64,000 bases of DNA. It comes from Niastella populi (GTDB lineage: Bacteria; Bacteroidota; Bacteroidia; Chitinophagales; Chitinophagaceae). Both the position numbers and the translations under genes were made by a program. The stretch is from contig NZ_LWBP01000210.1 in NCBI RefSeq assembly GCF_002078015.1, positions 186,001 to 250,000 on the forward strand, given 5' to 3'. The notes beneath the pieces are model-generated. The model was not told where the DNA came from. It saw only the letters and a list, made by a program, of their open reading frames with translations, and did no database searches. Positions 1,326 to 45,130 of the stretch are shown here, in pieces. Each line of letters opens with the position of its first letter. Position 1 is the first letter of the stretch.

Positions 1326-1799
1326 ATGATCAGCCAACGAAGAAACGCACTCAAAAAATTGTTTGCTACAGTTGCCGGAACCGTAGGATTGGGGTTGTTT
1401 GCAAAAGCGGGAGCCGCTGCTGCTGCACCAGATAAAGAAGACAAGGACGTATTTAATGTTGTTGATGACCAGGATGTGCCGCTTTTCTCAGGCGCCACAA
1501 AATTCAAAGGACTGGTTTTCATTGCGGGCAAAGGCGCTCATTTTGCCGGCGACATCAAAGCCCACACCGATCATGTATTGAAAGAACTTGAAAAAGAATT
1601 ACTCGCTGCCGGGTCTTCAATGGAAAAAGTGTTGAAAGTGAATGTGTACCTCGACGATATCAAAGACTATAAAGAGATGAATGAGGTGTACAAAGGTCGT
1701 TTTGGAAAGAAACCGCCGGTGCGTACTACCGTAGCCGTTGCCAAAGGCGGCGTGCCGGGCGATTCATTGGTAGAGATCGATTGCATTGCATATGTATAA
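1326..1799 (+). CDS. exported RidA-family enamine/imine deaminase
   Basis: RidA (YjgF/YER057c) proteins hydrolyse reactive enamine/imine intermediates such as 2-aminoacrylate released by PLP-dependent lyases. The 157-residue product has an N-terminal extension with a twin-arginine-like motif (QRRNALKKLF, residues 4-13), a hydrophobic stretch and an alanine-rich cleavage region, followed by a complete RidA domain. The Arg of the active site is kept at R133 in PVRTTVAVA. The ATG at 1326 is preferred; TTG at 1320 would add only two residues. Most RidA proteins are cytosolic, so export is odd and makes sense only with the exported PLP enzyme next door (2095-3315). The palindrome at 1156-1170 lies upstream. 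Family assignment is secure; the export route is inferred. Confidence 0.88.
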   Translation: MISQRRNALKKLFATVAGTVGLGLFAKAGAAAAAPDKEDKDVFNVVDDQDVPLFSGATKFKGLVFIAGKGAHFAGDIKAHTDHVLKELEKELLAAGSSMEKVLKVNVYLDDIKDYKEMNEVYKGRFGKKPPVRTTVAVAKGGVPGDSLVEIDCIAYV

Positions 1800-1910
1800 G
1801 GTTTATGGTTTATAGTTGCCTTGAAATTCGGGCGGTTACCATTTTTAGCAAAAGCCTGAATATTCGGGAGCCATAACCATAAACAAAAAACTATAAACAA
1901 TAAACTGTTT
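1800..1910. repeat. intergenic inverted repeat with TTTAT words
   Basis: The segment 1800-1816 (GTTTATGGTTTATAGTT core) is nearly the reverse complement of 1894-1910 (AACTATAAACAATAAAC), with about 77 bp between the arms. It follows the RidA stop codon directly and could fold as a long hairpin. There is no clear T-run. It belongs to the family of short word-like intergenic repeats seen across this window. Confidence 0.55.
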
Positions 1911-2034
1911 CAGGTTAAGGTTCGATTAATACACTACAACATCACATTTCTTATTCTCTTATCACTGTGATCTTGTGGTTACCATCACCTTATTGTATAC
2001 CCGGTCCGTTTGTTAATCCAGCTATGAACGGGAA

Positions 2035-2072
2035 GTGATCCAACCAAACATTTGTGATCCAACCAAACATTT
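2035..2072. repeat. 19-bp tandem duplication
   Basis: The 19-mer GTGATCCAACCAAACATTT occurs twice back to back at 2035-2053 and 2054-2072. It lies in the leader of the PLP-enzyme gene and creates an apparent GTG start at 2035 that I reject in favour of ATG 2095. Confidence 0.85.
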
Positions 2073-2094
2073 CCGCAAACCACAAACTAACTGT

Positions 2095-3315
2095 ATGCAA
2101 CGGAGAACATTGCTCAGGTATTTTTCACTTGTTCCCATGGCAGGCAGTGCCGCGCTGATTCCCTTTGCCACTGCCAAAGCCGCTCCGCCCCCTGCTGAAA
2201 AACGAAACCTTTTTAAAGAACTGGGTGTGCGCACATTTATCAATGCTGCGGGCACATATACTGCCATGACCGGTTCGCTGATGCACGATTATGTTGTAAA
2301 TGCCATACAGCAGGGCGCCGCCGAATTTTGCATGCTCGATGAATTGCAGGATAAAGTGGGCGCGAAGATCGCCGCGCTGGTGCATTCGGAAGCAGCAGTG
2401 GTAACATCGGGCGCCTTTGCCGGCATGACGTTGGGGCTGGCCGGTATTTTAACCGGGATGGACCAGCATAAAGTTGAACAGTTGCCTCACCTCGAAGGAA
2501 CGGGAATGAAGTCGGAAGTGATCATTCAAAAGGCACATGATATTGTATACAATCATGCCCTCAAAAACACCGGCTGTAAATTAATTTATGTAGAAACCGC
2601 CGCCGAAGCAGAGCAGGCCATCAATGAAAGAACGGCCCTGCTGCACTTCCTCAATATCGAAGCCGATAAAGGAAAGATCCTACACGAAGAATGGGTGGCG
2701 CTTGGCCGTAAACACAATATTCCCACATCTATCGACATTGCTGCCGATGTACCACCCGTATCAAACCTTTGGAAGTTCAATGATATGGGTTTCAGTTTCG
2801 TGGTGATCTCAGGCGGCAAAGCCATTCGGGGTCCGCAAAGCGCGGGATTACTGATGGGAAAGAAAGAGATCATTGCGGCTGCGCGGCTGCATATGCCGCC
2901 GCGTGGATTTAATATTGGCCGTGGGTTTAAAGTGAACAAAGAAGAAGTGCTGGGTATGTATGTGGCGCTTGAAAAATACATCCAACAGGATCACGATAAA
3001 GAATGGAAAGCGTGGGAAACAGCCACAGCGCAAATCGATACTGCCGCGAAGGCAGTAAACGGTGTAACAACCAGTATCTCCGTGCCGGCACTTGGAAACG
3101 TTACACCTACTTTACAAATCAGCTGGGATGCAACAAAAGTAAAAGTAACCGGTAAAGAACTGCAGGAGAAATTACGTGGCGGTCATCCCTCCATCGAAAT
3201 AGGCGGTGTAGGCGATAACAGCATTACCGTTACGGTCTGGATGCTGAAACCCGGGCAGGAAAAAATTGTAGCCACCCGTATCAGGGAGGAATTGTCGAAA
3301 GCGGGAGGCTGGTAG
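2095..3315 (+). CDS. exported SelA-like PLP-dependent ammonia-lyase candidate
   Basis: Fold-type I PLP enzyme of the SelA-related group (the group that contains D-glucosaminate-6-phosphate ammonia-lyase DgaE). The 406-residue product starts with a twin-arginine-type signal (MQRRTLLRYF, then a hydrophobic stretch ending near AKAAPPP), so the enzyme should act outside the cytoplasm. The PLP-binding lysine is expected at K242 in SGGKAIRGPQSAG; the SGAFAG loop near residue 105 would hold the phosphate. An upstream in-frame GTG at 2035 lies in a 19-bp duplication and would bury the signal peptide. Neighbours are an exported RidA and an exported deacetylase-type amidohydrolase, which fits deamination of an amino acid or 2-amino-aldonate with release of an enamine. 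It is not selenocysteine synthase: there is no tRNA-Sec context. The substrate is inferred. Confidence 0.82.
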   Translation: MQRRTLLRYFSLVPMAGSAALIPFATAKAAPPPAEKRNLFKELGVRTFINAAGTYTAMTGSLMHDYVVNAIQQGAAEFCMLDELQDKVGAKIAALVHSEAAVVTSGAFAGMTLGLAGILTGMDQHKVEQLPHLEGTGMKSEVIIQKAHDIVYNHALKNTGCKLIYVETAAEAEQAINERTALLHFLNIEADKGKILHEEWVALGRKHNIPTSIDIAADVPPVSNLWKFNDMGFSFVVISGGKAIRGPQSAGLLMGKKEIIAAARLHMPPRGFNIGRGFKVNKEEVLGMYVALEKYIQQDHDKEWKAWETATAQIDTAAKAVNGVTTSISVPALGNVTPTLQISWDATKVKVTGKELQEKLRGGHPSIEIGGVGDNSITVTVWMLKPGQEKIVATRIREELSKAGGW

Positions 3316-3420
3316 AGGCAATTGGAAACGTGAAACGGCAAACTTCAGCGCGGCGTACGCCGGCAATTCGCCTTCGCCAGGCTACGGCGAACAAGTCGGC
3401 AATCCTTGCCCGTCCGAAGC

Positions 3421-3443
3421 ATTGACCATTGACCATTCACCAT
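3421..3443. repeat. short intergenic repeat (TTGACCA words)
   Basis: ATTGACCATTGACCATTCACC is a short tandem run just before the amidohydrolase start. Related runs occur at 44057-44082 and, in reverse complement, at 62371-62397. Confidence 0.6.
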
Positions 3444-3455
3444 CGACATCAAAGC

Positions 3456-4706
3456 ATGTTCAAATTATACATCTTTCTCTTTCTCGCAAATGTGTGGCAG
3501 ATCGCATCGGCTCAAACCTACAATCTGGTTGTCAAAGGAGGTCATGTGATCGATGCCCGCAATAATATTGATGGCGTAATGGACATTGCCGTAAGTGATG
3601 GCAAAATTGTACGGGTGGCAAAAAACATCGATGAAACAAAAGCAACACAGGTCATCAACGCCAAGGGCCTGTACGTAACACCCGGACTTATAGATGCGCA
3701 TGTGCATGTATTTTATGGTCCCGATGCCGAACGCGCTTACAGCAACGGCCACCTGGCTGTTATTCCCGACCTTTTTACTTTCAGAAATGGCGTTACCACA
3801 ATAGTGGATGCCGGTAGTTCGGGCTGGCGTAACTTTTCCCAATTTAAAAAACAGGTGATCGATCTTTCACAAACAAGAGTGCTGGCATTTATAAATATTG
3901 TAGGCGAAGGCATGCGGGGTGGGGCATATGAACAGGATACAAAAGATATGGATGGCAAACTCACCGGTATGACGGCGAGGCGGTATAGCGATCATATCGT
4001 AGGAATAAAAGTGGCGCATTTTGTTGGCAGCGAATTTACGCCGGTTGATGAAGCCGTAAAGGCAGGCGCCATCGCAAGTTCACCGGTAATGATCGATTTC
4101 GGTGGTAGTAGTCCGCCCCTGTCAATTGAAGAATTATTCACCCGGCATTTACGGCCCGGCGATATCTTCACCCATTGTTTTGGCCAGTTGCGCGATCGCG
4201 AACCCATTGTTGACGTCGATACCAAAAAAGTAAAACCCTTTGTTTTTGAGGCGCAGAAAAAAGGGATCGCTTTTGATGTAGGATACGGTTCCATCAGCTT
4301 TGCTTTCTCCCAGGCCATTCCGGCAATAAAGAATGGTTTCTATCCCAACTCCATCAGCACCGATATTCATGCAAACAGTATGAATGCATCCATGAAGGAT
4401 CTGTTGAATGTGATGTCGAAAATGATGAGCATCGGCATGACCCTGCAGGGTGTTATTCAGGCCGCCACCTGGAACCCGGCCCGCGAAATAAAACATGAAG
4501 AGCTGGGGCATTTGTCGGAAGGCGCCATTGCCGATATCGCTATTCTTGGCCTGCGCAACGGTAAGTTCGGTTTTTTCGACTATACCGGTTACAAAGTAGA
4601 AGGCGCTCAAAAGCTGGAATGTGAAATGACCATCAAAGGGGGAAAAATAGTGTATGACCTCAATGGGCTCACGCCGCCGGCAACAAACAAAGCGGGCGGT
4701 CAATAA
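3456..4706 (+). CDS. exported amidohydrolase/deacetylase (EF_0837-type)
   Basis: Metal-dependent amidohydrolase, 416 residues, of the dihydroorotase-like group annotated as EF_0837/AHA_3915 deacetylases. Residues 1-20 form a Sec signal peptide ending in ASAQ. The N-terminal beta-sandwich strand leads into the metal-binding HxH at H82/H84 (GLIDAHVHVFYG); TTIVDAGSSGW follows, then HCFG and STDIHANSMN with the likely catalytic Asp. The ATG at 3456 is chosen because it places the signal peptide at the N-terminus; the frame is open from 3429. In other bacteria this family travels with SelA-related PLP enzymes, as here. It ends 13 bp before the RraA-like gene start. I infer removal of an N-acyl group before deamination by the PLP enzyme. 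Confidence 0.85.
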   Translation: MFKLYIFLFLANVWQIASAQTYNLVVKGGHVIDARNNIDGVMDIAVSDGKIVRVAKNIDETKATQVINAKGLYVTPGLIDAHVHVFYGPDAERAYSNGHLAVIPDLFTFRNGVTTIVDAGSSGWRNFSQFKKQVIDLSQTRVLAFINIVGEGMRGGAYEQDTKDMDGKLTGMTARRYSDHIVGIKVAHFVGSEFTPVDEAVKAGAIASSPVMIDFGGSSPPLSIEELFTRHLRPGDIFTHCFGQLRDREPIVDVDTKKVKPFVFEAQKKGIAFDVGYGSISFAFSQAIPAIKNGFYPNSISTDIHANSMNASMKDLLNVMSKMMSIGMTLQGVIQAATWNPAREIKHEELGHLSEGAIADIAILGLRNGKFGFFDYTGYKVEGAQKLECEMTIKGGKIVYDLNGLTPPATNKAGGQ

Positions 4707-4719
4707 AAATAAACTGATC

Positions 4720-5640
4720 ATGAAACCTGTTATCATAACGGCTGTTCTTCTGCTTTGTACAACAATGGCATTGCAGGCGCAAACCATGCCGCGTGAAGAA
4801 CTGATCTTTCTTACCGGCGAGTGGAAAGGCGAACGGTTTGCCGATGGGCGGCCAAAGATCCCCGACGATCTTATTCGCCGGGCGCGCAGTATCAATATTG
4901 AAGATGCATGGACGATCCTCAGCAACGAGGGCTATACCTGCCAGTATGAAGGCAGCTGGAAAACAGTGCATACCGATACGCCGGTGGTTGGCCGGGCATT
5001 GACCGCCCGTTTTATGCCAACCCGTCCCGATGTGGAGAAGAATATAAAAGAACGCGGAAAGAAAGAAGGGCGCGTAGGCAATACCAACGCCTGGCCTATT
5101 GATATGCTTACCAAAGGCGATGTATACGTGGCCGATGGGTTTGGAAAGATCGCCGATGGAACGCTAATCGGCAGTAACCTTGGCAATGCCATTTACAGCC
5201 GCTCGGGCAATGGTGTCGTTTTTGACGCCGCGGCCCGCGACCTCGAAGGGCTGGCAGAAATAAAAGGTTTCAACGCATATGTGCGCGACTGGCATCCCTC
5301 GTATTTGAAAGACGAGGTATTGATGGGACTGAACACGCCGGTCCGCATAGGGCATGCCATGGTGATGCCCGGCGACCTGGTGGTGGCAAAAAAAGGCGGG
5401 GTGCTGTTTATTCCGGCCCATATGGCCGAGACCGTTATCGTAACTGCCGAGTTTATTATTTTAAAAGACAAATTCGGCATCGGTATGTTGAAGGCCGCTA
5501 AGTATACACCGGGGCAGATCGACAGCCAGTGGACCGATAAAATAAAACAGGATTTCCTGGAATGGCTGCAGAAAAACCCCAATGAGATCCCGATGACCCG
5601 CGCGCAGTTGGATGAGTATATGAAGAAGCGGACGTGGTAG
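4720..5640 (+). CDS. exported RraA-family protein (aldolase-like)
   Basis: RraA-like proteins include 4-hydroxy-4-methyl-2-oxoglutarate/4-carboxy-4-hydroxy-2-oxoadipate aldolases, which cleave or decarboxylate 2-oxo acids with Mg2+. The product (306 residues) starts with a Sec signal peptide (MKPVIITAVLLLCTTMALQAQ). The family core runs from about residue 75 to 260, with the conserved R173-D174 in FDAAARDLEGL. It is longer than plain RraA because of N- and C-terminal extensions. The start at 4720 lies 13 bp after the amidohydrolase stop, so the two are probably cotranscribed. Placed after a deacetylase and a deaminating PLP enzyme, it could act on the 2-oxo acid they make; this is inference. 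Confidence 0.8.
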   Translation: MKPVIITAVLLLCTTMALQAQTMPREELIFLTGEWKGERFADGRPKIPDDLIRRARSINIEDAWTILSNEGYTCQYEGSWKTVHTDTPVVGRALTARFMPTRPDVEKNIKERGKKEGRVGNTNAWPIDMLTKGDVYVADGFGKIADGTLIGSNLGNAIYSRSGNGVVFDAAARDLEGLAEIKGFNAYVRDWHPSYLKDEVLMGLNTPVRIGHAMVMPGDLVVAKKGGVLFIPAHMAETVIVTAEFIILKDKFGIGMLKAAKYTPGQIDSQWTDKIKQDFLEWLQKNPNEIPMTRAQLDEYMKKRTW

Positions 5641-5947
5641 GGGGAGTTGACGGGTTGACGAGTTAACAAGTTGAGAGGTTGATAAAGGCATGTGATGAAA
5701 GTATATTATAAAGGGGCTGGTGGTGGCATGGTGCAAACAAAGTGAGCGCGCCGATTGCAGATGTAGGCCGCGCAGAGGTTTGCCGTTTCTCAGCCTGCCC
5801 CGATGAAGTCGGGGTTTGCCGATTCACGATTGCCGATTGCCGACGATGAAGCGAGTTCCAAACTGGGAAACCCTTTCACGATTCACGATTGCCGATTCAC
5901 GAAAACGAACAAAGATCCTTATCTATAAAAATGCTCATACTTAATCA
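5641..5947. repeat. intergenic repeat cluster with hairpin
   Basis: This 307-bp gap holds two word-like repeat families: GTTGACGGGTTGACGAGTT-type runs at 5645-5690 and GATTGCCGATTCACGA-type runs at 5818-5910. A hairpin CCCCGA-tgaag-TCGGGG lies at 5798-5814. No gene is visible. The hairpin lacks a T-run, so I do not call it a terminator. Confidence 0.6.
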
Positions 5948-7084
5948 ATGACTTCCTTAAAGATAGCCCTGCCGGTTGCTGCTGTATTTTTTATCGCTTT
6001 TGTCGTATTCAGTATTTTAAACGGCGCAGCAAATGCCGGTCCCTGGCTGATTGCCTGTTTCCTGTTTTTGTCAGCAGGGTTCAGGGTGTATGATGCCCTG
6101 AAAGGTTTTTCTTTCACCATGATCATATTTGCCGCCGTAACCACGGCGCTTTATTACCCGCAGTATTTCGTAAGCTGGGGCGGAGTGAAACTGGCTATTT
6201 TCTTCACTCCATTATTACAGATCATCATGTTTGGAATGGGAACCGAAATGGGCATTAAAGATTTTGCCGGCGTTATAAAAATGCCCAAGGCTGTGCTGAT
6301 CGGGTTGTTTGGTCATTTTACATTTATGCCGCTGGCCGGTTATACCCTTGCCCGCATTTTTAATTTTCCACCCGAAATAGCAGCCGGTGTAGTGCTTATT
6401 GGCAGTATGCCGTGCGGAATGGCGTCGAACGTGATGTCGTACCTCGCCAATGCCAATTTAGCGTTGTCGGTAACGTTAACGGCTGTTGCCACGCTGTTAT
6501 CGCCATTTTTAACGCCGTTGTGGATGAAGGTGCTGGGCGGACAATTCATCACCGTTGATGCCAGCGCTATGATGTGGGATATTGTGAAGATCGTTGTACT
6601 ACCCATTGGCGCCGGTTTGCTGTTCAACCGGTTCTTCAAAGGCAAACTTACCTGGCTCGATAAAATAATGCCGTTGATCTCCATGTTCGGTATTGCCTTT
6701 ATCATTGTGATCATTGTGGCCGCAGGGCGCGATAATCTTATTGTAATAGGACCGGCCCTCATCATTTGCGCACTTATTCATAACACCACCGGGTATATGT
6801 TTGGTTACTGGATCGGCAGGCTGTTCCGGTTGCCCGAACGCGATGCCCGTACCATTGCCATTGAAGTGGGAATGCAAAACGGGGGACTGGCCTCAGGACT
6901 TGCCAGGGAAATGGGAAAGGCCGCAACGTTAGGACTGGCGCCTGCGATCTTTGGTCCGCTCATGAATATTACCGGATCGATACTGGCGTCGTATTGGCAC
7001 AGGAAGCGGATAGTTGATGAGGATGGTTCAAAGAAAGAGGCTTTGGAAGCTATAGGTACGTTGGAGGTTAACAGGGTTGGTTGA
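5948..7084 (+). CDS. bile acid:sodium symporter (BASS) family transporter
   Basis: Integral inner-membrane carrier, 378 residues, with nine or ten predicted hydrophobic helices. The BASS signatures are clear: GMGTEMGIKDF, PLAGYTLA, and GSMPCGMASNVMSYLANANLALSVTLTAVATL split across two crossing helices, then EVGMQNGGLASGLA. Family members import organic acids (bile acids, pantoate, pyruvate or other 2-oxo acids) with Na+. It follows the exported deacetylase/PLP/RraA genes on the same strand, after a 307-bp repeat-filled gap, so it may import the oxo acid they make. The gap means cotranscription is uncertain. Confidence 0.88.
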   Translation: MTSLKIALPVAAVFFIAFVVFSILNGAANAGPWLIACFLFLSAGFRVYDALKGFSFTMIIFAAVTTALYYPQYFVSWGGVKLAIFFTPLLQIIMFGMGTEMGIKDFAGVIKMPKAVLIGLFGHFTFMPLAGYTLARIFNFPPEIAAGVVLIGSMPCGMASNVMSYLANANLALSVTLTAVATLLSPFLTPLWMKVLGGQFITVDASAMMWDIVKIVVLPIGAGLLFNRFFKGKLTWLDKIMPLISMFGIAFIIVIIVAAGRDNLIVIGPALIICALIHNTTGYMFGYWIGRLFRLPERDARTIAIEVGMQNGGLASGLAREMGKAATLGLAPAIFGPLMNITGSILASYWHRKRIVDEDGSKKEALEAIGTLEVNRVG

Positions 7085-7140
7085 GGTTGACGAGTTAACG
7101 AGTTGACTGGTTGACGGGAGGTTGAAAAGGTGATAAAGTT
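7084..7140. repeat. short intergenic repeat (GTTGACGAG words)
   Basis: GAGGTTGACGAGTTAACGAG followed by TTGACTGGTTGACGGG repeats the word family seen at 5645-5690, again directly after a stop codon. Confidence 0.6.
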
Positions 7141-8052: not shown

Positions 8053-8065
8053 CTGGCGAACGGGA

Positions 8066-33042: not shown

Positions 33043-33057
33043 TGCAAATATTTTGCA
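33043..33057. promoter_or_regulatory. TGCAAAT palindrome near DeoR-type gene
   Basis: TGCAAATATTTTGCA differs from the perfect palindrome at 33211-33225 by one position. With adjacent TTGCAA direct repeats (33025-33030, 33042-33047) it forms an operator cluster, likely for autoregulation of the divergent regulator. Confidence 0.5.
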
Positions 33058-33210: not shown

Positions 33211-33225
33211 TGCAAATAATTTGCA
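33211..33225. promoter_or_regulatory. perfect 15-bp palindrome before susC, likely operator
   Basis: TGCAAATAATTTGCA is identical to the site at 1156-1170. Its TTTG (33220-33223) could serve as the -33 element with TATTTAAA (33242-33249) as the -7 region, 18 bp apart, so bound repressor would block the susC promoter. Confidence 0.65.
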
Positions 33226-33300
33226 GTTATTTCGTTTTTGTTATTTAAATTGAGACAGAATTCGCAACGTAACCAAACATTCTACTCAACTCAAACGCTT

Positions 33301-36300: not shown

Positions 36301-36426
36301 CTTTACCGGCAAACCGACAATTTTGATCCGGAACAGAGTTTTACCAACAGCAATGCCCAGGGATTTGAGTCTATTGGCCTGCCACGTACAAGATCATATG
36401 GCCTGAACCTGGGTATTAAATTATAA
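33301..36426 (+). CDS. SusC/RagA TonB-linked outer-membrane transporter (pair 2)
   Basis: Product of 1041 residues: signal peptide (FPGLAQ), carboxypeptidase-like domain (LVKSEADQSPLPNATVTLV), plug (NALTGKIAGVNAAGLS, VINGMPIDN, SISVLKGGTAAALYGSRA) and barrel ending in SYGLNLGIKL. The ATG at 33301 places the signal peptide correctly; an upstream TTG at 33238 would extend it into the promoter. Its plug differs from those of pairs 1 and 3, so the ligand differs. It is divergent from the DeoR regulator and is followed by SusD, GH29 and GH20 genes. Confidence 0.95.
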   Translation: MKRVKLIASGSLLLCFHFLFSFPGLAQTTQLKGLVKSEADQSPLPNATVTLVTGKGDASTTTDLKGRFTLVVPAGLGSSELQLLITSVGFEKKQVTVTPGETMITISLKNGSADMLDNVVVTALGVKKERKAVAYAVTEVKGSEFTQARENNVANALTGKIAGVNAAGLSTGPGGSSRVTIRGNGSLNGDNQPLYVINGMPIDNSVPGGAPTVNGITFNIDRGDGIAGINPDDIESISVLKGGTAAALYGSRAANGVILITTKKGRAQRGIGVEYNSTYTMENIAVIPDFQYEYGQGAQGVKPTTLAASQASGRFSWGAKIDGSKDYVGVDGNTHPYVAQKKNLQNFYQTGTTFTNTIALTGGSDKFNFRFSAADLNSKGILPNTTYKRKTFNLSVNSKLSDKLHLDAVVQYNLEEGKNRTMAGDALGNPNWTPLEIANTADVRWLDPGYDANGNETIWNDVAIASNGYFVRNKWQENDRKNRFIGQADISYELVKNLVFKGSVSRDFYNYNYSHVMPTGTLYTPNGEYAGLKSDVSETNAMVTASYKTSVAGKLGISVMAGANSRKFNNDQLNMSGRNFTIPYYYSFSNLSTASTIPYNGRITTNSVFASVDLDYKNLLFITLTGREDWFSTLSSKNNHIFYPSVGGAFILSDALSLPSLFNFAKLRASWAQVGGGAPDPYAINLTYSNVPSSGPALLNVTSNNISNPNLKPYTSTTYEAGIELQMLRNRLGLDFTVYNRKTTNDIVNTAISSTSGYNNVILNVGELRNRGIEALLTGKPVTGKFSWNVSYNVAYNNSKVVQLAPGLKSIQIANAVGNWCYINHIEGQPFGTLVGTRMVKDENGNTVFNATTGLPVVSPLQELGNSVAPLTMGLTNEFRYKDFSFSFLLDGKFGNKVFSVFELYATRMGKLKSTLPGRENGLELKGVDQAGNPYSRTVSVANLRPYYDNFKTYSELFLHDGSFVKLRQVILSYNIPVSKIKFLKIQAASLSFVARNLAILYRQTDNFDPEQSFTNSNAQGFESIGLPRTRSYGLNLGIKL

Positions 36427-36480: not shown

Positions 36481-38013
36481 ATGAAAAAACTCATAACAAC
36501 ATATACGGCCTGCCTGGTTATATTGTCCGGTACATTTATCATGCAGTCGTGCGACAAGAATTTCGAAGAAACCAATACCAACCCGAATGCCGTTTCAACG
36601 GTAGTTCCTCAGTTTGTATTTACCAAGGCGCAGTACGATGGCGCTGGCAATATGCTCGCCTTGTTTTTAGGTCATATGCAATACACTACCAGCTATAATG
36701 ATGTGGCCGGGTTTGGGTCGAAGTATGTTACCAACCAAAGCCAGCAAACAGCCGCCGCTTTCAGCAGCGCTTATACGAATGAGATAAATGAAATTGGAAT
36801 AGTGATCAAAGCGGTACAGGGCGATGCAGCAAAAATTAATATGCTCGCAGCGGCTAAAATATGGCGGGTGTACTGTTTTAGCAGGCTTACCGACCTGTAT
36901 GGCGACATACCGTATTTTGAGGCCGGGCTGGGGTACGATTCGGCTTTGTACAAACCGGCCTACGATTCACAGAAAGACATTTATGCCCACATGCTGGCCG
37001 AACTTGAATCGGCCGCACAAAGCTTTGATGCTTCTAAAACCACTTTCGGAACATCGGACCTTATGTATGGCGGCGACATTGATAAATGGAAAAAATTCGC
37101 TTATTCTTTAATGTTGAGAATGGGCATGCGGATGACCAAAGTAGATGCCACCCTGGCGCAAAGCTGGGTTGCAAAAGCAATTGCCGGCGGTGTTATTTTG
37201 CAGGACGGCGATATTGCTAAAATATCTTACATCGGCTCTGGCCAGGATATTAATAAAAACCCGCTGGTCTTTGATTTATGGAATAGCGATTATATTGCCC
37301 AGAATGGATCTACCAATACAGAAGGAGGTAAGTATCATAATGTATTTATCAATTACCTCAAATCGACAAAAGATCCGCGCTTACCCGTTTTTTCTGTGGT
37401 TTGGGTTAATGGAACACCCAGTACCGATACTGCCATTCAGAAAGGAATGCCGGCCACGTTCATTAATATTAAACCGGCCGATTTCGTAACCTATTCAGAG
37501 CCCAACCCGAAAACCGTATTGCAGATGAGTTCGCCGTTGTTGTTATTTACCGCGGCCGAGTCGCATTTTCTGCTGGCCGAAGCCGCCCTCAGAGGTTGGT
37601 ATAATGGGGCAACAGCCAGTTCGTTGTACCGGAACGGCATTGAAGCGGCCATGCGGCAGTGGGCAATTATAGCCGGAAGCGCCGGTCAAATAGCCGAATC
37701 AGATATCAATAAATACGTTGCCGGCAATGCTCTTAATACAGGCGGCACCTTCGACCAGCAAATGGAACAGATCTATACACAGTTTTGGATAAGTATTTTT
37801 CCCGATGCCCAGGAAGTGTTTGCCACTTTCCGCCGTACCGGTTATCCGGCATTGGTTCCGAATAACTACCCCGGCAACGCAACCGGCGGAAAATTTTTCC
37901 GGCGTGCATTGTATCCGTTATCAGAACAAAACCTGAATGCGGAATCGTATAATGCTGCCGTGAGCCGGCAGGGTACAGATGAATTTTTAACCCGTATCTG
38001 GTGGGATAAGTAA
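36481..38013 (+). CDS. SusD-like nutrient-binding lipoprotein (pair 2)
   Basis: Surface lipoprotein of 510 residues; lipobox FIMQSC, then DKNFEETNTNPNAVSTVVPQF, KIWRVYCFSRLTDLYGDIPYFEA and YSLMLRMGMRM, typical of the SusD-like 2 branch. It lies 54 bp after susC 2 and is its partner. A repeat-containing gap separates it from the GH29 gene. Confidence 0.95.
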   Translation: MKKLITTYTACLVILSGTFIMQSCDKNFEETNTNPNAVSTVVPQFVFTKAQYDGAGNMLALFLGHMQYTTSYNDVAGFGSKYVTNQSQQTAAAFSSAYTNEINEIGIVIKAVQGDAAKINMLAAAKIWRVYCFSRLTDLYGDIPYFEAGLGYDSALYKPAYDSQKDIYAHMLAELESAAQSFDASKTTFGTSDLMYGGDIDKWKKFAYSLMLRMGMRMTKVDATLAQSWVAKAIAGGVILQDGDIAKISYIGSGQDINKNPLVFDLWNSDYIAQNGSTNTEGGKYHNVFINYLKSTKDPRLPVFSVVWVNGTPSTDTAIQKGMPATFINIKPADFVTYSEPNPKTVLQMSSPLLLFTAAESHFLLAEAALRGWYNGATASSLYRNGIEAAMRQWAIIAGSAGQIAESDINKYVAGNALNTGGTFDQQMEQIYTQFWISIFPDAQEVFATFRRTGYPALVPNNYPGNATGGKFFRRALYPLSEQNLNAESYNAAVSRQGTDEFLTRIWWDK

Positions 38014-38107: not shown

Positions 38108-38193
38108 TTTCGTACACAATACAAGTAGGTTTTAAGTGTAACCGGAGGGCATGTCTATGTCCTCCTTTAAAAAAATACCAATAATTGAATGGC

Positions 38194-39837
38194 ATGAGAA
38201 TAAAAAGAGGATTTGTAATTATCATTTGCATAATGCATTCGTTGGTTTCCCCGGGCCAGCACGATGTAGTGAAAGATGGTGAGGCCAGCGAATATAATCT
38301 CAATAAACCGGAAAGGGAAGAATGGTTGCGTAATTCAGCTGCAGGGTTGTTCATACATTTCAGCGTGGATGCACAACTGGGAATAGTGATCAGTCATTCG
38401 CTGGTTGGTGCATCGGATGATTATGTAAACAGGTATTTCAATGAACTGCCGAAAACATTTTATCCGTCACGTTTTGATCCCGTTGAAATTGCCACCCTGG
38501 CAAAACTGGCCGGTATGAAATATATTATGTTCACGACAAAACACCACTCGGGGTTTTGTATGTGGAATACGAAAACGACCGGCTTCAATATCATGAACAC
38601 ACCGTACCGAAAAGACCTGTTAAAGGATTTTGTAGAAGCCACGCGCAATGCAGGGTTACAGGTAGGGTTTTATTTTTCGCCCGAAGATTTTCATTTCCTG
38701 CATACGCATGATATGCTTATCAGCCGCGACGATGTTGTAATGACTGATGTGGTTAAGAAAGAATTTGATGAGTTTACCCGCCGGCAATGCGAGGAGCTTA
38801 TGACGAATTATGGAAAGATCGATCTGTTGTTTATTGATGGTGAGCCAAAGGAAGTGGTAAAGGAAACCTGCTGGAAGCTGCAACCCGATATTTTAATTAC
38901 CCGGGGAGCATTGAAAACAACCGAGCAGATGTTGCCCGGTGTAACCATTCAAAAACCCTGGCTTTCGTGTATTACCATTGGTACGGCCTGGCAGTTTCAG
39001 CCAACGAATGAACGATACAAATCGGGCACTTCATTGATTGATTTACTGGTAGAGGCCAGAAGTAAAGGCGGATCGTTATTACTGAATACCGGTCCCAAAC
39101 CCGATGGCGCCATGGTGCCGGAGCAGGAGAACCGGCTGCGTGAACTGGCCGCCTGGTATTTCATCAACAAAGAAGCGGTGGACAGCGTGCAGCCCTGGGT
39201 CATTAGCCGCGAAAAGAACATATGGTTTACAACGAAAAATAATAAACAAACCCTTTACGCAATTATTACCGGTTTGCCAGGCTGGGTAGAAGGTGACCGG
39301 AAAAGCTTTGTACTGCATTCAGTAAAGGCAACAGCCGGCACTTCAATCAGTGTACTTGGACAGAACGGCATCATCCAGGAATATAAACCGGGCCGGAACG
39401 TAAAACCCGCTTTTCAGCAAACTGATACCGGGTTAATTGTATCGGTGTTTCGCACCCAGCGCATTTACGACGATCATAAATGGCCTAATGCCGTGGTGGT
39501 AAAACTGAAAAATGTGCAGCCTGCCATTGAACCCGTACAGGTGGTAACGTTAGACGCCCGTTCATCAGGAACTACCATGGCGTTATCAGGTAAAATATTA
39601 AACTTTAAGCCGGCAACGCCAATGAAAGCACGATTTTACTATCGCCCGTATCACGGGCAGATAGAAGACCTGTATACCGGCCCCTGGATAAGGTCTGCCC
39701 CGGCGCCGATAGAAAGCAACGGACACTTCAAGGCAACCATTGCCGGTTTGAAAAAGGGACAGCAATATGAATTCAAGGCAGTAGCCGAATACAGCAATAT
39801 TGAATTGGAAGGAGATAAAAAATTGTGGACTCAATAA
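38194..39837 (+). CDS. GH29 alpha-L-fucosidase (DeoR locus)
   Basis: Secreted glycosidase of 547 residues with a signal peptide (SLVSPGQ). The GH29 barrel shows GLFIHFSVDAQLG, GMKYIMFTTKHHSGFCMW, and the nucleophile D215 in KIDLLFIDGEP, then GGSLLLNTGPKPDG. A C-terminal beta-sandwich and a fibronectin-like tail follow. It removes alpha-linked fucose from glycans, with retention. The ATG at 38194 is preferred over TTG at 38185. It overlaps nothing and is followed 3 bp later by the GH20 gene, so they are cotranscribed. Confidence 0.9.
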   Translation: MRIKRGFVIIICIMHSLVSPGQHDVVKDGEASEYNLNKPEREEWLRNSAAGLFIHFSVDAQLGIVISHSLVGASDDYVNRYFNELPKTFYPSRFDPVEIATLAKLAGMKYIMFTTKHHSGFCMWNTKTTGFNIMNTPYRKDLLKDFVEATRNAGLQVGFYFSPEDFHFLHTHDMLISRDDVVMTDVVKKEFDEFTRRQCEELMTNYGKIDLLFIDGEPKEVVKETCWKLQPDILITRGALKTTEQMLPGVTIQKPWLSCITIGTAWQFQPTNERYKSGTSLIDLLVEARSKGGSLLLNTGPKPDGAMVPEQENRLRELAAWYFINKEAVDSVQPWVISREKNIWFTTKNNKQTLYAIITGLPGWVEGDRKSFVLHSVKATAGTSISVLGQNGIIQEYKPGRNVKPAFQQTDTGLIVSVFRTQRIYDDHKWPNAVVVKLKNVQPAIEPVQVVTLDARSSGTTMALSGKILNFKPATPMKARFYYRPYHGQIEDLYTGPWIRSAPAPIESNGHFKATIAGLKKGQQYEFKAVAEYSNIELEGDKKLWTQ

Positions 39838-39840
39838 AAT

Positions 39841-42138
39841 ATGAAGTGTAAAAGAAGTTCCCTGGTGGTATTTATATTGAATTTTTTCCTGCCTCATGCC
39901 CTGTTGGCGCAGGCCGGCAGCAATGTATTGCCTGCCCTTATCCCTTTACCGGTTGAGGTAAAACGATCGGCCGGAATTTTCGATTTGAACCCATCGACAA
40001 AAATTGTAATTGAAAATAAGGACGTGAGCGGGTTGGCTGCATTGTTTAACGGCTATGTGACCGCCCTCAGTGGAAAACAGTTACCGGTAGTATCTGCCGC
40101 CCCGGCTTATAATTTTATCTTATTGGATCTCGACCCGGCATCGATAACCCATAAAGAAGGGTATCGGCTTCAGGTCAATGAAAAAAGCATCCGGTGTATT
40201 GGCCATGATGCAGCGGGGGTTATGTACGGCCTGCAAACCTTACGGCAGTTATGGAACGTTTCGGGCAATTCGATAAAAGTACCGGCATGTACCGTAAACG
40301 ATTACCCGCGGTTCGGGTACAGGGGCATGGCCCTCGATGTGAGCCGGCATATCTTTCCGGTACCATTTATCAAAAAATACATCGATCTGCTTGCCCTTTA
40401 CAAGTTCAATACTTTTCACTGGCACCTGACCGATGACCAGGGTTGGCGGATCGAGATCAAAAAATATCCAAAGCTGCAGTCGGTGGCTGCCTGGCGCAAC
40501 GAAACACTCATAGGGCATAAAAAAGAATTACCGCACCGGTTCGATGGAAAACGTTACGGTGGTTATTATACACAACAACAGATCAAAGAGGTGGTACAGT
40601 ATGCGGCCAGCCGGCATATAACCATTATTCCTGAAATAGAAATGCCCGGTCACGCTTCAGCAGCGCTGGCTGCTTATCCGTTTCTGGGTTGTACGGGCGG
40701 TGCATATAAAACTTCAACGTTCTGGGGGGTGTTTGACGACGTGTTTTGCGCAGGTAACGATAGCACATTTACATTTTTGCAAAATGTGCTCGATGAAGTA
40801 ATGGCGCTGTTCCCATCAACCTTTATTCATATCGGCGGCGACGAATGCCCAAAAACAAGATGGAAGGCTTGTGCAAAATGCCAGCAACGGAAACAGTCGC
40901 TGGGTTTGGCCAACGAACATGCATTACAGAGCTATTTCATTCAGCGGATGGAAAAATACCTGAATGGTAAGGGCCGGCAGATCATCGGCTGGGATGAAAT
41001 ACTGGAAGGCGGTTTGGCGCCCAATGCCACGGTAATGAGCTGGCGGGGTGAAGAAGGAGGAAGGGCCGCTATAGCTCAAAACCACCGGGTGATCATGACG
41101 CCCGAAAGTCATTGTTATTTCGATTATTACCAGTCGTTATACAATGAGGAGCCACTGGCCGCGGGTGGTTTTACACCTTTGCAGAAAGTATATGGTTATG
41201 AACCGCTTGCTGCAGATACGGATACTTTGCAAACCCAATACCTTGCGGGCGTTGAAGGGCAGGCCTGGAGCGAATACTTTACCAGTGAGGCAAAGGCGGT
41301 GTATATGATCTTTCCAAGGGCGTTGGCGCTAGCTGAACTGGCCTGGACGCCCAAAGCGCAGCGTAATTACAACGATTTCCTGCAACGGTTACGGTCGCAG
41401 AAAGAACTGATGCAACTGGCCGGCCTGCGTTATCCGGCGCATGTTGATGACATCACTTTCAATGCAACAGCCCTACAGAACAATACCGTTCAAATGACCT
41501 TGCAAACATCGCTGCCCGGTGCTGCAATCCGGTATACAACAAACAATAGTGTTCCAACCAAACAGAGTGCGCTATATACCGCACCGGTTGCGCTAACGAA
41601 AACAGGCACGTTAAAAGCGCTGGTATTTGACAAACAGGGAAAACCCTGCGGCAGGATATTTCAGCAGTCAGTTCATATACATAAAGGAGTGGGGGCGCAT
41701 GTAACAGTGAAGCATAAGCCGGTAGAACGTTTCAACCCCGGTAACAACGTATTGGTAAATGGATTGTACGGCAGCAACAGGTACAATGACAGCCAGTGGC
41801 TGGGTTATAGTGGCAGTGATTTCAGTGCCGTGATCGACCTTGGTTCAGTGCAAACGATTACACGACTCGGTTTAAACACCCTGAACTATCACTGGCAGCG
41901 GATGTGGGCGCCGGTTTCGTTACAATTCCTGGTTTCAACAGATGGAGCGCATTTTTCGGAAGTATACCGGCAGCAATCGTTTCCGGTGAACGGCATCAAT
42001 AAGGTGAAAAGCACCATAAAACCCGTTCAGGCGAGGTACATCAAAGTTACCGGCGTAAACAAAGGTGTAATTCCGGCTGGTGAATATGGCGCAGGCGGTA
42101 ACGCCCTGCTGCTGATAGATGAAGTAATAATTGAATGA
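39841..42138 (+). CDS. GH20 beta-N-acetylhexosaminidase
   Basis: Secreted exo-hexosaminidase of 765 residues. Signal peptide (ALLAQ), GH20b N-terminal domain, then a TIM barrel with FHWHLTDDQGWRIEIKKYP, the catalytic pair D334-E335 in HIGGDECPKTRW, and GWDEILEGGL. A chitobiase-like C-terminal sandwich (about 530-615) and an F5/8 type C (CBM32-like) domain (about 625-765) follow. It releases terminal GlcNAc or GalNAc by substrate-assisted catalysis. The release of amino sugars is the first step of the pathway I infer for this locus. Confidence 0.95.
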   Translation: MKCKRSSLVVFILNFFLPHALLAQAGSNVLPALIPLPVEVKRSAGIFDLNPSTKIVIENKDVSGLAALFNGYVTALSGKQLPVVSAAPAYNFILLDLDPASITHKEGYRLQVNEKSIRCIGHDAAGVMYGLQTLRQLWNVSGNSIKVPACTVNDYPRFGYRGMALDVSRHIFPVPFIKKYIDLLALYKFNTFHWHLTDDQGWRIEIKKYPKLQSVAAWRNETLIGHKKELPHRFDGKRYGGYYTQQQIKEVVQYAASRHITIIPEIEMPGHASAALAAYPFLGCTGGAYKTSTFWGVFDDVFCAGNDSTFTFLQNVLDEVMALFPSTFIHIGGDECPKTRWKACAKCQQRKQSLGLANEHALQSYFIQRMEKYLNGKGRQIIGWDEILEGGLAPNATVMSWRGEEGGRAAIAQNHRVIMTPESHCYFDYYQSLYNEEPLAAGGFTPLQKVYGYEPLAADTDTLQTQYLAGVEGQAWSEYFTSEAKAVYMIFPRALALAELAWTPKAQRNYNDFLQRLRSQKELMQLAGLRYPAHVDDITFNATALQNNTVQMTLQTSLPGAAIRYTTNNSVPTKQSALYTAPVALTKTGTLKALVFDKQGKPCGRIFQQSVHIHKGVGAHVTVKHKPVERFNPGNNVLVNGLYGSNRYNDSQWLGYSGSDFSAVIDLGSVQTITRLGLNTLNYHWQRMWAPVSLQFLVSTDGAHFSEVYRQQSFPVNGINKVKSTIKPVQARYIKVTGVNKGVIPAGEYGAGGNALLLIDEVIIE

Positions 42139-42163
42139 TGAAAAGCAAAATCAATAAAAAGTA

Positions 42164-43480
42164 ATGTCAATTGTAATCGTTCTGGTCTGCATAGTTATAC
42201 TCATCCTGCTGATAACGTGGGGTAAGCTGAATGCATTTCTGGCTTTTCTGATCGTATCACTGATGGCCGGTTTATTTCTTAGGCTGCCGGCCGAAAAGAT
42301 CATGGCATCTATTCAGCAGGGAATGGGCGATACGCTGGGCGGGTTGGTGAGCATTATCTGCCTTGGCGCCATGCTGGGTAAGCTGGTAGCGGAAAGCGGC
42401 GCTGCGCAAAAGATAGCTACGGTGTTGATGAACGCATTCGGCGTGCGTTACCTGCAATGGGCCCTCATGATAACCGGGTTTATCATTGGCATTCCATTGT
42501 TCTACGGCGTAGGATTTGTGCTGATGGTGCCGCTTATTTTTTCGGTTGTGTATCAGTATAAGTTACCGGCCGTTTATATTGGGCTGCCCATGCTGGCGGC
42601 CTTATCGGTAACCCATGGCTTTTTGCCGCCGCATCCTTCACCCACCGCATTGGTAACACAATTCGGGGCAGGAATGGGAGCAACGTTATTGTATGGTCTG
42701 GTAATAGCTATTCCTGCCATCGTCATCGCAGGCCCGTTATTTTCAAGGACGATCAAAAATATTTCAGCCCAACCGCTTGAAACTTTCAGGCCGCAGACAA
42801 TAGATAAGGCAAAGCTACCGGGAACCGCCGTTAGTTTTATCACTTCATTGTTGCCTGTGTTCCTGCTTACCGCCACCACCGTTGTAACATATTTCTTTAA
42901 TGAATACGAATCATTCAAAGGCATTTTGACGTTGATAAGCGAACCTGCGCTCATTATGCTGGTATCGGTGCTGGTTGCCGCTTTTACATTGGGCGTGGGT
43001 AATGGCAGAAAGATGAAGGACGTGATGCATATTTATGGAGAAGCGGTTAAGGATGTTGGCATGATCCTGTTGATCATTGCCGGCTCGGGCGCATTGAAAC
43101 AGGTATTGACCGACAGCGGCGTGAGCAAAGAAATAGCATCGGCTTTACAAACCTGGCCGGTACATCCGTTGATCCTGGCCTGGTGTATGGCCGGCATCAT
43201 ACGTATTTGCGTAGGCTCTGCAACTGTAGCCGGCTTAACCACTGCCGGTATCATTGCCCCGCTGCTTGCAGGTTCGGGTGTTGATCCCAACCTGATGGTA
43301 TTGTCGGTAGGCGCAGGCAGTTTATTGTTCTCGCATGTTAATGATGCCGGTTTCTGGCTGTTTAAAGAGTATTTCAACCTGAGCATAAAAGACACTATAA
43401 AAACATGGTCGGTGATGGAAACGATCGTTGCCGTGACGGGACTGGCCGGCGTAATGATATTAGACGGGATCATAGGTTAA
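42164..43480 (+). CDS. GntP-family aldonate:H+ symporter
   Basis: Inner-membrane carrier of 438 residues with about 12 hydrophobic helices. GntP signatures are present: GMGDTLGGLVSIICLGAMLGK, PLFYGVGFVLMVPLIF, HGFLPPHPSPTALV, and SHVNDAGFWLFKEYF near the end. Family members import gluconate, 2-keto-3-deoxygluconate-like acids or D-serine. It sits between GH20 and RidA in one operon with a KDG-type kinase, which points to a 2-keto-3-deoxy or amino aldonate as substrate. Confidence 0.93.
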   Translation: MSIVIVLVCIVILILLITWGKLNAFLAFLIVSLMAGLFLRLPAEKIMASIQQGMGDTLGGLVSIICLGAMLGKLVAESGAAQKIATVLMNAFGVRYLQWALMITGFIIGIPLFYGVGFVLMVPLIFSVVYQYKLPAVYIGLPMLAALSVTHGFLPPHPSPTALVTQFGAGMGATLLYGLVIAIPAIVIAGPLFSRTIKNISAQPLETFRPQTIDKAKLPGTAVSFITSLLPVFLLTATTVVTYFFNEYESFKGILTLISEPALIMLVSVLVAAFTLGVGNGRKMKDVMHIYGEAVKDVGMILLIIAGSGALKQVLTDSGVSKEIASALQTWPVHPLILAWCMAGIIRICVGSATVAGLTTAGIIAPLLAGSGVDPNLMVLSVGAGSLLFSHVNDAGFWLFKEYFNLSIKDTIKTWSVMETIVAVTGLAGVMILDGIIG

Positions 43481-43504
43481 ATATAAAAGTCAAATAACTA
43501 AAAC

Positions 43505-43966
43505 ATGAACGCAGAAGAAAGATTCAACAAACTGGGATTGAGATTACCGCCTGCTCCCACCCCATTGGGAGTGTACAAGCCTTATCTTATCGATGGAAAG
43601 TATCTGTACTTATCGGGCCATGGGCCTGTTCGAGACGACAAAACACTGATCATTGGCCGTATTGGCAGCGAACTGAATATGGAAGAAGGTAAGCTGGCCG
43701 CCCGGCAGGTAGGGTTAACTATGTTATCGACGATCGTAACACATATAGGCAGCCTCGATACAATTAAACGGGTAATAAAAGTATTGGGCATGGTGAACTG
43801 TACGCCCGATTTTGAACGGCATCCCTATGTAATAAACGGTTGCAGTGAATTGTTTGCAGCGGTATGGGGTGAAGAGAATGGGATCGGCGTGCGCAGCGCT
43901 GTTGGTTTTGGTTCCCTGCCCGATAATATACCGGTGGAAATAGAAGCAATGTTCGAGTTGTTTTGA
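43505..43966 (+). CDS. cytosolic RidA-family protein
   Basis: A 153-residue RidA/YjgF-type protein of the YjgF-like/endoribonuclease L-PSP branch with no signal peptide, unlike the exported copy at 1326. GKYLYLSGHGPVRDDKTL opens the domain; the active-site Arg is kept in GVRSAVGFGSLPDN and the end EIEAMFELF is typical. It lies 24 bp after GntP. It may clear enamine/imine intermediates imported by GntP or made in the cytosol, giving the regulon one RidA on each side of the membrane. Confidence 0.9.
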   Translation: MNAEERFNKLGLRLPPAPTPLGVYKPYLIDGKYLYLSGHGPVRDDKTLIIGRIGSELNMEEGKLAARQVGLTMLSTIVTHIGSLDTIKRVIKVLGMVNCTPDFERHPYVINGCSELFAAVWGEENGIGVRSAVGFGSLPDNIPVEIEAMFELF

Positions 43967-44089
43967 AAACGGAAGCCGGAAGTCAGTGGTCGGAAGCCGG
44001 AAGGAATAGTAAATTAGGTTTTGGATTTTAGCCGGAAAGCGCAAAATTCGTGAAACCATTGACCATTCCCCTTTCACCATTAAAAGCAC
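43967..44089. repeat. short intergenic repeats (GGAAGCCGGAAG, TTGACCA words)
   Basis: ACGGAAGCCGGAAGTCAGTG and GGAAGCCGGAAGG occur at 43970-44005, and ACCATTGACCATTCCCC with TTCACCATT at 44055-44082. Confidence 0.6.
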
Positions 44090-44092
44090 TTG

Positions 44093-45130
44093 ATGATGAT
44101 GCCACCATTAAATGGTCCTGTTCAGTTAACCGCATTTGGTGAGTTCATGATGCGGTTGCATAGCGCAGGATCTCAGCGGTTTTTACAAACCCAGGAATAT
44201 AAAGCTTATTATGCCGGCGCGGAAGCCAATGCATGCGTGTTACTATCCCGGCTTGGCATTCCCACCCGGTATATTACCCGGGTGCCTGACAATGATATCG
44301 CCCTGGCCGGCATTCAACAACTGCAAAGCCATGGTGTGGCTACCGGTCATGTAATATATGGCGGTGAAAAGCTGGGACTTTATTTTACCGAGCCCGGCAA
44401 TCATCTCCGGCCCACACGCGTCATTTACGACAGGGCCGGTTCTTCCTATGCCGAACTGCAGCCGGGTATGATCGATTGGAAAAAGGCATTGCATAACACC
44501 GCTTATTTCCACTGGTCGGGTGTGGCCGCGGCAGTTTCGCAAAGCGCGGCCGATGTATGTGCCGAAGCGCTGGCTGTGGCAAAAGAGAACGGCGTCATCA
44601 TTTCCGCCGATTTCAATTATCGCAGCACCTTGTGGAGGTATGGGAAGAAAGCTTCCGACATTATGCCTGCATTGTTACAATACAGCGAAGTGGTGGTGGC
44701 CGACCTCGATGCTGCTGCCATTTACTATGGAATAAAAACAGCTGAAGGCGCCTCGCTGGAAGATCGCTTTAAACAATGCAGCGACGCATTGCGCAAACGA
44801 TTACCGGCCATGAGAACGCTGGCCATGAGCTTTCGAAAGACCGAGGGGTTGATGCACGATTATTCCGGAGCCATGATGCACCAGGGGCAATATTATTTTA
44901 CAGCCGGCTACCGGCTGCCGTTTATTACCGATCAGATCGGAACGGGTGATGCCTTTACTGCCGGTTTGTTGTATGGCCTCATGAATGATCTGCCACCGCA
45001 GGCGGTAATTGAATTTGCAATGGCCTGTGGTGCATTGAAGCAAAGTGTTCAGGGCGACTGGGCCATCATCAATAAGCAGGAAGTAGAACAATTTATGCAG
45101 CAGGGCGCATCGGGAAGAATAATCAGGTGA
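44093..45130 (+). CDS. PfkB-family sugar kinase, likely KDG kinase
   Basis: Ribokinase-fold kinase of 345 residues most like 2-keto-3-deoxygluconate kinase: TAFGEFMMRLHSAGSQRF, YYAGAEANACVLLSRLG, DFNYRSTLWRYGKKASDIM, and the catalytic anion-hole motif DQIGTGDAFTAGLLYG. The DFNYRStLW segment is typical of KDG kinases rather than ribokinase. It should make 2-keto-3-deoxy-6-phosphogluconate in the cytosol. No KDPG aldolase gene is in the window. Several ATG codons run together; 44093 is the first. Confidence 0.85.
   Translation: MMMPPLNGPVQLTAFGEFMMRLHSAGSQRFLQTQEYKAYYAGAEANACVLLSRLGIPTRYITRVPDNDIALAGIQQLQSHGVATGHVIYGGEKLGLYFTEPGNHLRPTRVIYDRAGSSYAELQPGMIDWKKALHNTAYFHWSGVAAAVSQSAADVCAEALAVAKENGVIISADFNYRSTLWRYGKKASDIMPALLQYSEVVVADLDAAAIYYGIKTAEGASLEDRFKQCSDALRKRLPAMRTLAMSFRKTEGLMHDYSGAMMHQGQYYFTAGYRLPFITDQIGTGDAFTAGLLYGLMNDLPPQAVIEFAMACGALKQSVQGDWAIINKQEVEQFMQQGASGRIIR

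Follow-up and report, generated by a model that had tools for sequence, protein, structure and literature searches.

The 64,000-nucleotide stretch of the Niastella populi genome considered here (contig NZ_LWBP01000210.1, positions 186,001 to 250,000; hereafter the window) carries two separate gene groups, locus 1 and locus 2, whose genes and operator-like palindromes are collected in Table 1. All six genes named in an initial annotation, encoding RidA, a SelA/DgaE-like pyridoxal 5'-phosphate (PLP) protein, an amidohydrolase, GH20, GntP and a sugar kinase, are open frames at the positions and in the families assigned to them, but that span left out the RraA-like, SBF, DeoR, SusC, SusD, GH29, Rid2 and M19 genes. 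The two loci are read here, with a probability of about one half, as a single DeoR regulon whose substrate would be a 2-acetamido-2-deoxy-aldonic acid, either N-acetylglucosaminate or one of its isomers, and whose key enzymes would work outside the cytoplasm. The linkage, the co-regulation and export signals and the catalytic residues are taken from the sequence, and the reactions, the substrate, the binding by DeoR and the roles of the transporters are what we infer.

Table 1. Genes and operator-like palindromes of the two loci (positions within the window)
Feature	Position	Strand	Match or placement	Locus
Operator-like palindrome TGCAAATAATTTGCA	1156..1170	.	upstream of locus 1 (RidA)	
RidA-type protein, twin-arginine leader	1326..1799	+	PF01042 (Ribonuc_L-PSP) E 2.1e-21	1
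SelA/DgaE-like PLP protein, twin-arginine leader	2095..3315	+	PF03841 E 1.8e-6; TIGR01437 E 1.5e-50	1
Amidohydrolase of PRK09237 type, predicted exported	3456..4706	+	439.4 bits, cut-off 371	1
RraA-like protein, predicted exported	4720..5640	+	PF03737 E 8.6e-17	1
SBF/PanS-like inner-membrane transporter	5948..7084	+	PF01758 E 4e-41; PanS model 243 bits, cut-off 400	1
DeoR-type regulator	32084..32866	-	PF00455 E 3.4e-34; PF08220 E 7.7e-13	2
Operator-like palindrome TGCAAATATTTTGCA	33043..33057	.	between DeoR and SusC	
Operator-like palindrome TGCAAATAATTTGCA	33211..33225	.	between DeoR and SusC	
SusC-type TonB-dependent transporter	33238..36426	+	PF00593 + PF07715	2
SusD-type lipoprotein	36481..38013	+	PF12771 E 9.7e-81	2
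GH29 alpha-L-fucosidase family protein, leader-like N-terminus	38185..39837	+	PF01120 E 1e-61	2
GH20 beta-hexosaminidase family protein, leader-like N-terminus	39841..42138	+	PF00728 E 1.3e-119	2
GntP-type gluconate:H+ symporter	42164..43480	+	PF02447 E 6.9e-148; TIGR00791 503 bits, cut-off 293	2
Second Rid-type protein (Rid2), without leader	43505..43966	+	PF14588 E 2.5e-14	2
PfkB sugar kinase	44093..45130	+	PF00294 E 1.9e-27; PDB 2afb E 9.5e-58	2
M19 dipeptidase-type hydrolase, without leader	45239..46306	+	PF01244 E 4.5e-52; PDB 3ly0/3fdg	2

The two loci share one palindromic pattern, TGCAAATAWTTTGCA, which occurs in exactly three exact copies in the whole 8.6-Mb genome, all of them at these loci. 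The same pattern read backwards, serving as the control, occurs once, and the base composition predicts 0.05 copies; three exact sites against 0.05 expected, together with the conservation among relatives, rule out a chance occurrence. Relatives were covered by a contig scan of 74 loci carrying a DgaE-like gene (DgaE loci), taken from the best 80 of 148 relatives with at most 9 kb on each side, a sample that leans towards close relatives. Among these loci, the exact palindrome lies upstream of RidA in eight (L159–L165 and L168) and, with one mismatch, in L167. Genome G150, whose region is L161, has it ahead of both loci, and palindromes with one mismatch are situated between DeoR and SusC in G175, G002 and G177; none within one mismatch was found between these two genes in G065 and G102. 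Furthermore, in Niastella sp. OAS944 (L269), both loci form one contiguous 14-gene, 20-kb block with three palindromes around the DeoR gene, in the order RidA-DgaE-amidohydrolase-RraA-SBF-(DeoR)-SusC-SusD-GH29-GH20-GntP-Rid2-kinase-M19. The DeoR protein of the window is 94.6% identical to that of this fused block, and its gene adjoins two of the three palindromes, which it is presumed to bind. Co-regulation of loci 1 and 2 as one regulon is strongly supported by these sequence data, in agreement with the initial annotation, which had described the loci as operator-linked. No tandem repeats were found upstream of locus 1.

Export was scored in the 74 loci as a 12-residue hydrophobic stretch ahead of the mature domain, with a twin arginine (RR) just before the stretch; rows of less than 40% identity and those whose N-terminus was short were excluded before counting (5 DgaE, 21 GSDH-B, 6 SGL, 11 CBM9 and 1 Rid2). 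The DgaE-like proteins possess the stretch in 81/86 and RR in 79/86 cases, and RidA in 60/62 and 55/62, compared with 73/181 and 3/181 for the control open reading frames. A leader-like hydrophobic stretch is present in all 76 amidohydrolases, with RR in two, and the stretch also precedes all 16 RraA-like proteins. In the alignments, RR is conserved in at least 95% of both the DgaE-like and the RidA families, and TatC is present in all six genomes searched. The PLP protein and RidA, with their twin-arginine leaders, are predicted substrates of the twin-arginine translocation (Tat) system, and the leader of the amidohydrolase appears to be of the Sec type. An artefact of start-codon choice is ruled out by the conserved twin arginine, set against 3/181 control frames. 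That the deacetylase-like and lyase-like enzymes and RidA of locus 1, all three with visible leaders, are exported, as the initial annotation had proposed, is a strongly supported prediction. Four pairs of loci (L161/L036, L176/L038, L183/L040 and L186/L041) are the same regions and enter the residue-conservation, N-terminus and RraA row counts twice, and the neighbour and leader counts use the 74 loci alone.

The closest solved structure to the PLP protein by sequence is DgaE (PDB 7lc0, E 2.3e-28). Its AlphaFold2 (AF2) model, with a pLDDT of 86.8, also has 7lc0 as the top fold match, with a TM score of 0.78 on the query and 0.86 on the target at 24% identity. Two residues, K242 and D214, align with those of DgaE and are invariant across 30 rows; we take them to be the catalytic lysine and the PLP-binding aspartate, respectively. 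The protein is probably a 2-amino-aldonate ammonia-lyase, to judge from fold and residues, and its predicted Tat export implies a presumably non-phosphorylated substrate. In a tree of the 30 rows, the short exported DgaE forms, including those of Granulicella, constitute one clade with support of 100/99, with long-branch warnings for the outsiders. A longer DgaE-like lineage (about 532–555 aa) with Tat-like leaders lies apart from the short form in this tree and occurs in Bacteroidota and on a Granulicella plasmid (L218 9653–11257, L231 14478–16142 and L253 9701–11299).

In 95% or more of 104 rows, the amidohydrolase retains H82, H84, K185, H240 and D303, which are presumably its metal ligands, and its score exceeds the PRK09237 cut-off. 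Its structural matches (PDB 8je0, 2ogj and 2ics) bear the loose names amidase, dihydroorotase and adenine deaminase, and it reaches 230 of the 432 bits required by the EF_0837 model TIGR03583. The protein is probably an N-deacetylase. Membership in the family of OngB, the deacetylase of N-acetylglucosaminate, is rejected: only a 66-residue stretch matches PpOngB 9kb1 (query 29–94, chain 7–71, E 6.8e-4), and the HxH/Lys pattern differs from the subtype V Cys/His/His site given for OngB in PMC12017989. In RidA, R133 and E150 are conserved, and both presumably correspond to the active site of E. coli RidA.

The RraA-like protein retains R173 and D174 in 27/27 rows, of which a few are duplicated. 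Where the CHA aldolase 3noj has its acid, the aligned residue of the window protein is Ser152, and the 27 rows carry Ser in 14, Asp in 11 and Gln in 2, hinting that the aldolase use of these proteins may differ between lineages. Ser occupies this position in nine Niastella/Longitalea rows, the window included and one row a duplicate. We take the acid of 3noj to be D102, and an Arg-Asp pair with an upstream acid to be the motif of class II pyruvate aldolases; the window protein is a possible pyruvate aldolase. According to PMC5065237, R123 of the CHA aldolase matters for activity. An AF2 model of the RraA-like protein, with a pLDDT of 64, was set aside and not used. In locus 2, the PfkB kinase is probably a 2-keto-3-deoxygluconate (KDG) kinase, since 2afb is a KDG kinase structure, but it stays under the curated cut-offs, with 173 bits for NF041332 (cut-off 440) and 47 bits for NF052444 (cut-off 400). 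The M19 hydrolase is possibly an N-acyl-D-amino-acid hydrolase.

A DgaE relative is present in 20 of the 195 family genomes, 17 of them at E <1e-20, and the DgaE loci belong to Niastella, Longitalea, Terrimonas, Spirosoma, Larkinella, Dyadobacter, Olivibacter, Aquiflexum, Mariniphaga and other Bacteroidota. Around the 74 loci, the neighbours include the amidohydrolase at 60, RidA at 56, SBF at 24, RraA at 16 and GH20 at 6; open frames were called by a simple longest-frame script that missed at least one RidA (L159), and 56 is a lower bound. The proposal that the SelA-like and amidohydrolase genes travel together is borne out by these counts. A GSDH-cytochrome protein of type A occurs at 37 loci and of type B at 23, an SMP-30 lactonase at 21, CBM9 at 20, SusD-b at 21 and SusC-b at 18. 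Among 26 control loci, a non-random set drawn from the surroundings of kinase, fold-III or uronate genes and partly picked for locus-2 genes, type B occurs once and GH20 in six; type A, SMP-30 and CBM9 are absent. The loci are not independent events, since some relatives are near-identical. Pfam searches of the partners identify cytochrome c together with GSDH (a clear match for type A and a weak one for type B), a pyrroloquinoline quinone (PQQ) dehydrogenase in G102, SGL and CBM9, and further the lactonase PF10282, PIG-L and FAD_oxidored.

Several clusters bring these genes together. In two Spirosoma loci (L197 and L210), DeoR, SusC, SusD, RidA, DgaE and the amidohydrolase stand in this order, and Terrimonas L166 unites GntP, SusC, SusD, RidA, DgaE, amidohydrolase, RraA, GSDH-cytochrome, SBF and GH29. 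The Granulicella plasmid has the order RraA, DgaE, RidA, long DgaE, amidohydrolase, lactonase and BBE oxidase; the two DgaE proteins, RidA and the lactonase carry Tat-like leaders. In haloarchaea, according to PMC12343721, chitinase clusters contain a DgaE-type gene along with glucose dehydrogenase and RutC. From the counts in the relatives' clusters, a dehydrogenase or oxidase and a lactonase are frequent partners of the module elsewhere. Because these modules carry aldose-dehydrogenase-like proteins and lactonases, every step that leads from the amino sugar to the keto acid could be exported. A complete exported route in Bacteroidota and Acidobacteriota, comprising an oxidase or dehydrogenase, a lactonase, the deacetylase, the Tat-exported PLP lyase and RidA and, in some, an aldolase, with only keto acids imported, remains tentative, somewhat short of even. 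If it exists, acetate, ammonia and keto acids would arise outside the cytoplasm.

In the regulon of the window, the SusC/SusD pair would take up amino-sugar oligosaccharides, which the GH20 and GH29 enzymes, judged by family, would trim in the periplasm. The exported amidohydrolase would then remove the acetyl group, and the Tat-exported PLP enzyme would split off ammonia, so that a 2-keto-3-deoxy acid results; the enamine or imine would be cleared by the Tat-exported RidA. This acid may enter through GntP and/or the SBF transporter, the KDG-type kinase of the regulon would phosphorylate it, and a 2-keto-3-deoxy-6-phosphogluconate (KDPG) aldolase would complete the route; the gene for such an aldolase, which the initial annotation had suggested seeking, is present on contig C200. 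As deduced from sequence, this chemistry stands at about even odds.

Several observations weigh against this reading, beginning with the PLP protein. It obtains 172.1 bits where TIGR01437 requires 385.3 and 138.3 of 600 bits for NF047797; both curated DgaE cut-offs are missed, and membership in the DgaE family as such is rejected. Meanwhile, the fold of Cap15 (8t7j, whose title calls it oxygen- and PLP-dependent) lies as near as that of DgaE, with 24% identity each, and homology does not fix the reaction because of both points. The exported module might instead serve other compounds, such as N-acyl-D-amino acids, acetylated hydroxy acids or other 2-amino-3-hydroxy acids, or contain an O2-using, Cap15-like PLP enzyme, with the sugar genes merely co-regulated. 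The loosely named amidohydrolase structures also fit such a module, but the GH20, GSDH/PQQ-type dehydrogenases, lactonases, CBM9 and PIG-L in the clusters and the KDG-type kinase in the regulon speak against it, and we consider it improbable.

The oxidation step counts against the same reading. The AA10 lytic polysaccharide monooxygenase (LPMO) is absent from all nine genomes searched, the window's own included, and the oxidase or LPMO expected elsewhere in this genome did not clearly emerge among the families searched. The type-B GSDH-cytochrome gives one match of 93 residues (E 1.5e-6), PQQ a partial match in a 620-aa frame (E 8e-5) that is formally above the cut-off together with its neighbours, and BBE a partial match in a 1004-aa frame, formally above at 23.7 bits (cut-off 20.6) and covering 23/45 positions. 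None of the PQQ, BBE and type-B GSDH-cytochrome matches in the genome is convincing as an oxidase, type A and other oxidase families not having been searched genome-wide. In addition, the Granulicella BBE protein has no leader at its annotated start, the exact operator is found at 8 of the 74 DgaE loci, all from Niastella/Longitalea and one Bacteroidetes metagenome-assembled genome, and G102 carries both modules, yet neither locus has a palindrome within one mismatch.

The last step is affected as well. A kinase ending leaves the RraA-like and SBF genes without a role, and a close kinase (at least 58% identity) is found in 8 of the 195 family genomes, five of which have the kinase locus without DgaE; the overlap is three genomes against 0.7 expected (P 0.02). 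Among 18 DgaE genomes, five from Niastella hold both with kinase identities of 79–83%, and the other 13 have only kinases of 32–38%. The ending by KDG import through GntP and phosphorylation put forward in the initial annotation is possible but not required, the modules also occurring apart (5/8 kinase genomes, 13/18 lyase genomes), and a parallel cytosolic route is a serious rival because of the fold-III/GntP groups, the fold-III gene of this genome and the production of KDG by OngC. In such an arrangement, two routes would share one regulator. Locus 2 would correspond, in Bacteroidota, to the ong pathway known from Pseudoalteromonas prydzensis: GntP would import the N-acetylated acid, the cytosolic M19 hydrolase would deacetylate it, the OngC-like fold-III enzyme encoded on contig C100 would deaminate it with the help of Rid2 and the kinase would act on KDG; locus 1 would make its own keto acid outside, to be cleaved by RraA or imported by SBF. 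Groups of GntP, Rid2, fold-III and M19 genes exist in G120 (with the kinase and a KDPG aldolase), G045 and G006, and a related one of M19, fold-III, KDPG aldolase and kinase lies at a contig end in G059. The genome itself has a fold-III PLP gene (OngC/D-threonine-aldolase-like) beside a second GntP on contig C100 (L132 7965–10579), locus 2 is conserved without DgaE in G175, G002, G065 and G177, and OngC, a fold-III enzyme, converts glucosaminate to KDG according to PMC9537276. However, the exact operator is absent at the C100 fold-III gene, as it is at the C200 aldolase gene, with none within one mismatch in L132, and a fold-III homologue is present in 21/21 genomes searched, for which reasons the C100 gene may serve D-serine or D-threonine. 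M19 deacetylation of aldonates is a guess, and the window RraA has Ser at the position of the aldolase Asp. Two parallel routes are, on balance, less likely than not.

A further reading is the scavenging of D-amino acids or peptidoglycan fragments by an M19 dipeptidase, GntP/DsdX-like uptake and D-amino-acid deamination; in other bacteria, D-amino-acid compounds are among the substrates of the M19 and GntP families. OngC deaminates D-serine and D-threonine too (PMC9537276). This proposal leaves the GH20, GH29, SusC/SusD, KDG-type kinase and lactonase/dehydrogenase partners unexplained and is very improbable.

Concerning the source of the sugar, chitin, as proposed in the initial annotation, is not supported. 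Because GH29 stands beside GH20 and two further GH29 genes and a GH35 gene lie downstream, the data suggest fucosylated (and galactosylated) glycans as much as chitin. The downstream genes belong to a second, nearby SusC/SusD glycan locus (50236–62363) with a sigma-70-type factor, FecR, SusC, SusD, two GH29 and a GH35 beta-galactosidase. Elsewhere in the window, the frame at 11875–13119 encodes an HD-domain protein that ends in a PycTM (Pycsar effector) domain, and a polyphosphate kinase gene (13133–15187) comes directly after it.

If the DeoR regulon acts on acetamido-aldonic acids as proposed, it would represent a different enzyme set for oxidised amino sugars, with PLP and Rid chemistry, normally cytosolic, moved to the periplasm across several families of Bacteroidota and in at least one Acidobacterium. 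A gene group now annotated merely as aminotransferase, RidA, RraA and amidohydrolase would also receive a function, and soil bacteria might have a way to use the oxidised amino sugars of chitin or glycoproteins. Among the matches listed in the open literature, there is no report of a Tat-exported RidA, of PRK09237 relatives or of a periplasmic Bacteroidota route.

There are differences between the window proteins and their nearest known counterparts. Compared with DgaE (7lc0), the PLP protein shares the fold, the catalytic lysine and the PLP aspartate, but it is only 24% identical in the fold alignment, below the curated cut-offs and predicted to be exported by Tat. The amidohydrolase matches the EF_0837/PRK09237 enzymes (2ics, 2ogj and 8je0) over its full length, above the PRK09237 cut-off and with the metal ligands kept, but it carries a predicted Sec-type leader and falls under the TIGR03583 cut-off. 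The RraA-like protein keeps the Arg-Asp pair of the HMG-CHA aldolase (3noj), whereas it is predicted to be exported and has Ser instead of the acid ahead of the pair, where 11/27 rows have Asp. A published oxidative chitin route with cytosolic deacetylase and deaminase, which the initial annotation had mentioned, does exist: the ong pathway (OngA/B/C/D and KdgK), whose deacetylase and deaminase are predicted to be cytosolic in Jiang 2022 (PMC9537276). On the same source, it resembles the window in GH20, TonB-dependent uptake, deacetylation, deamination to KDG, a RidA protein, a KDG kinase and a repressor. However, it employs the D-aminoacylase OngB and the fold-III PLP enzyme OngC, both predicted to be cytosolic, an SSS transporter and an RpiR-type regulator, whereas the window has a PRK09237 amidohydrolase and a SelA/DgaE-fold enzyme, both predicted to be exported, GntP and SBF transporters and DeoR. 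The PLP protein is rejected as a member of the OngC family, its fold being that of SelA/DgaE and not fold III. The AA10 LPMO of the ong cluster was not found in the window's genome, and in place of a cytosolic deacetylase and fold-III deaminase the regulon has proteins with leaders and a SelA/DgaE fold, the fold-III homologue lying on another contig. The module would be a variant of the known Dga and Ong routes, set apart by the predicted export of its enzymes.

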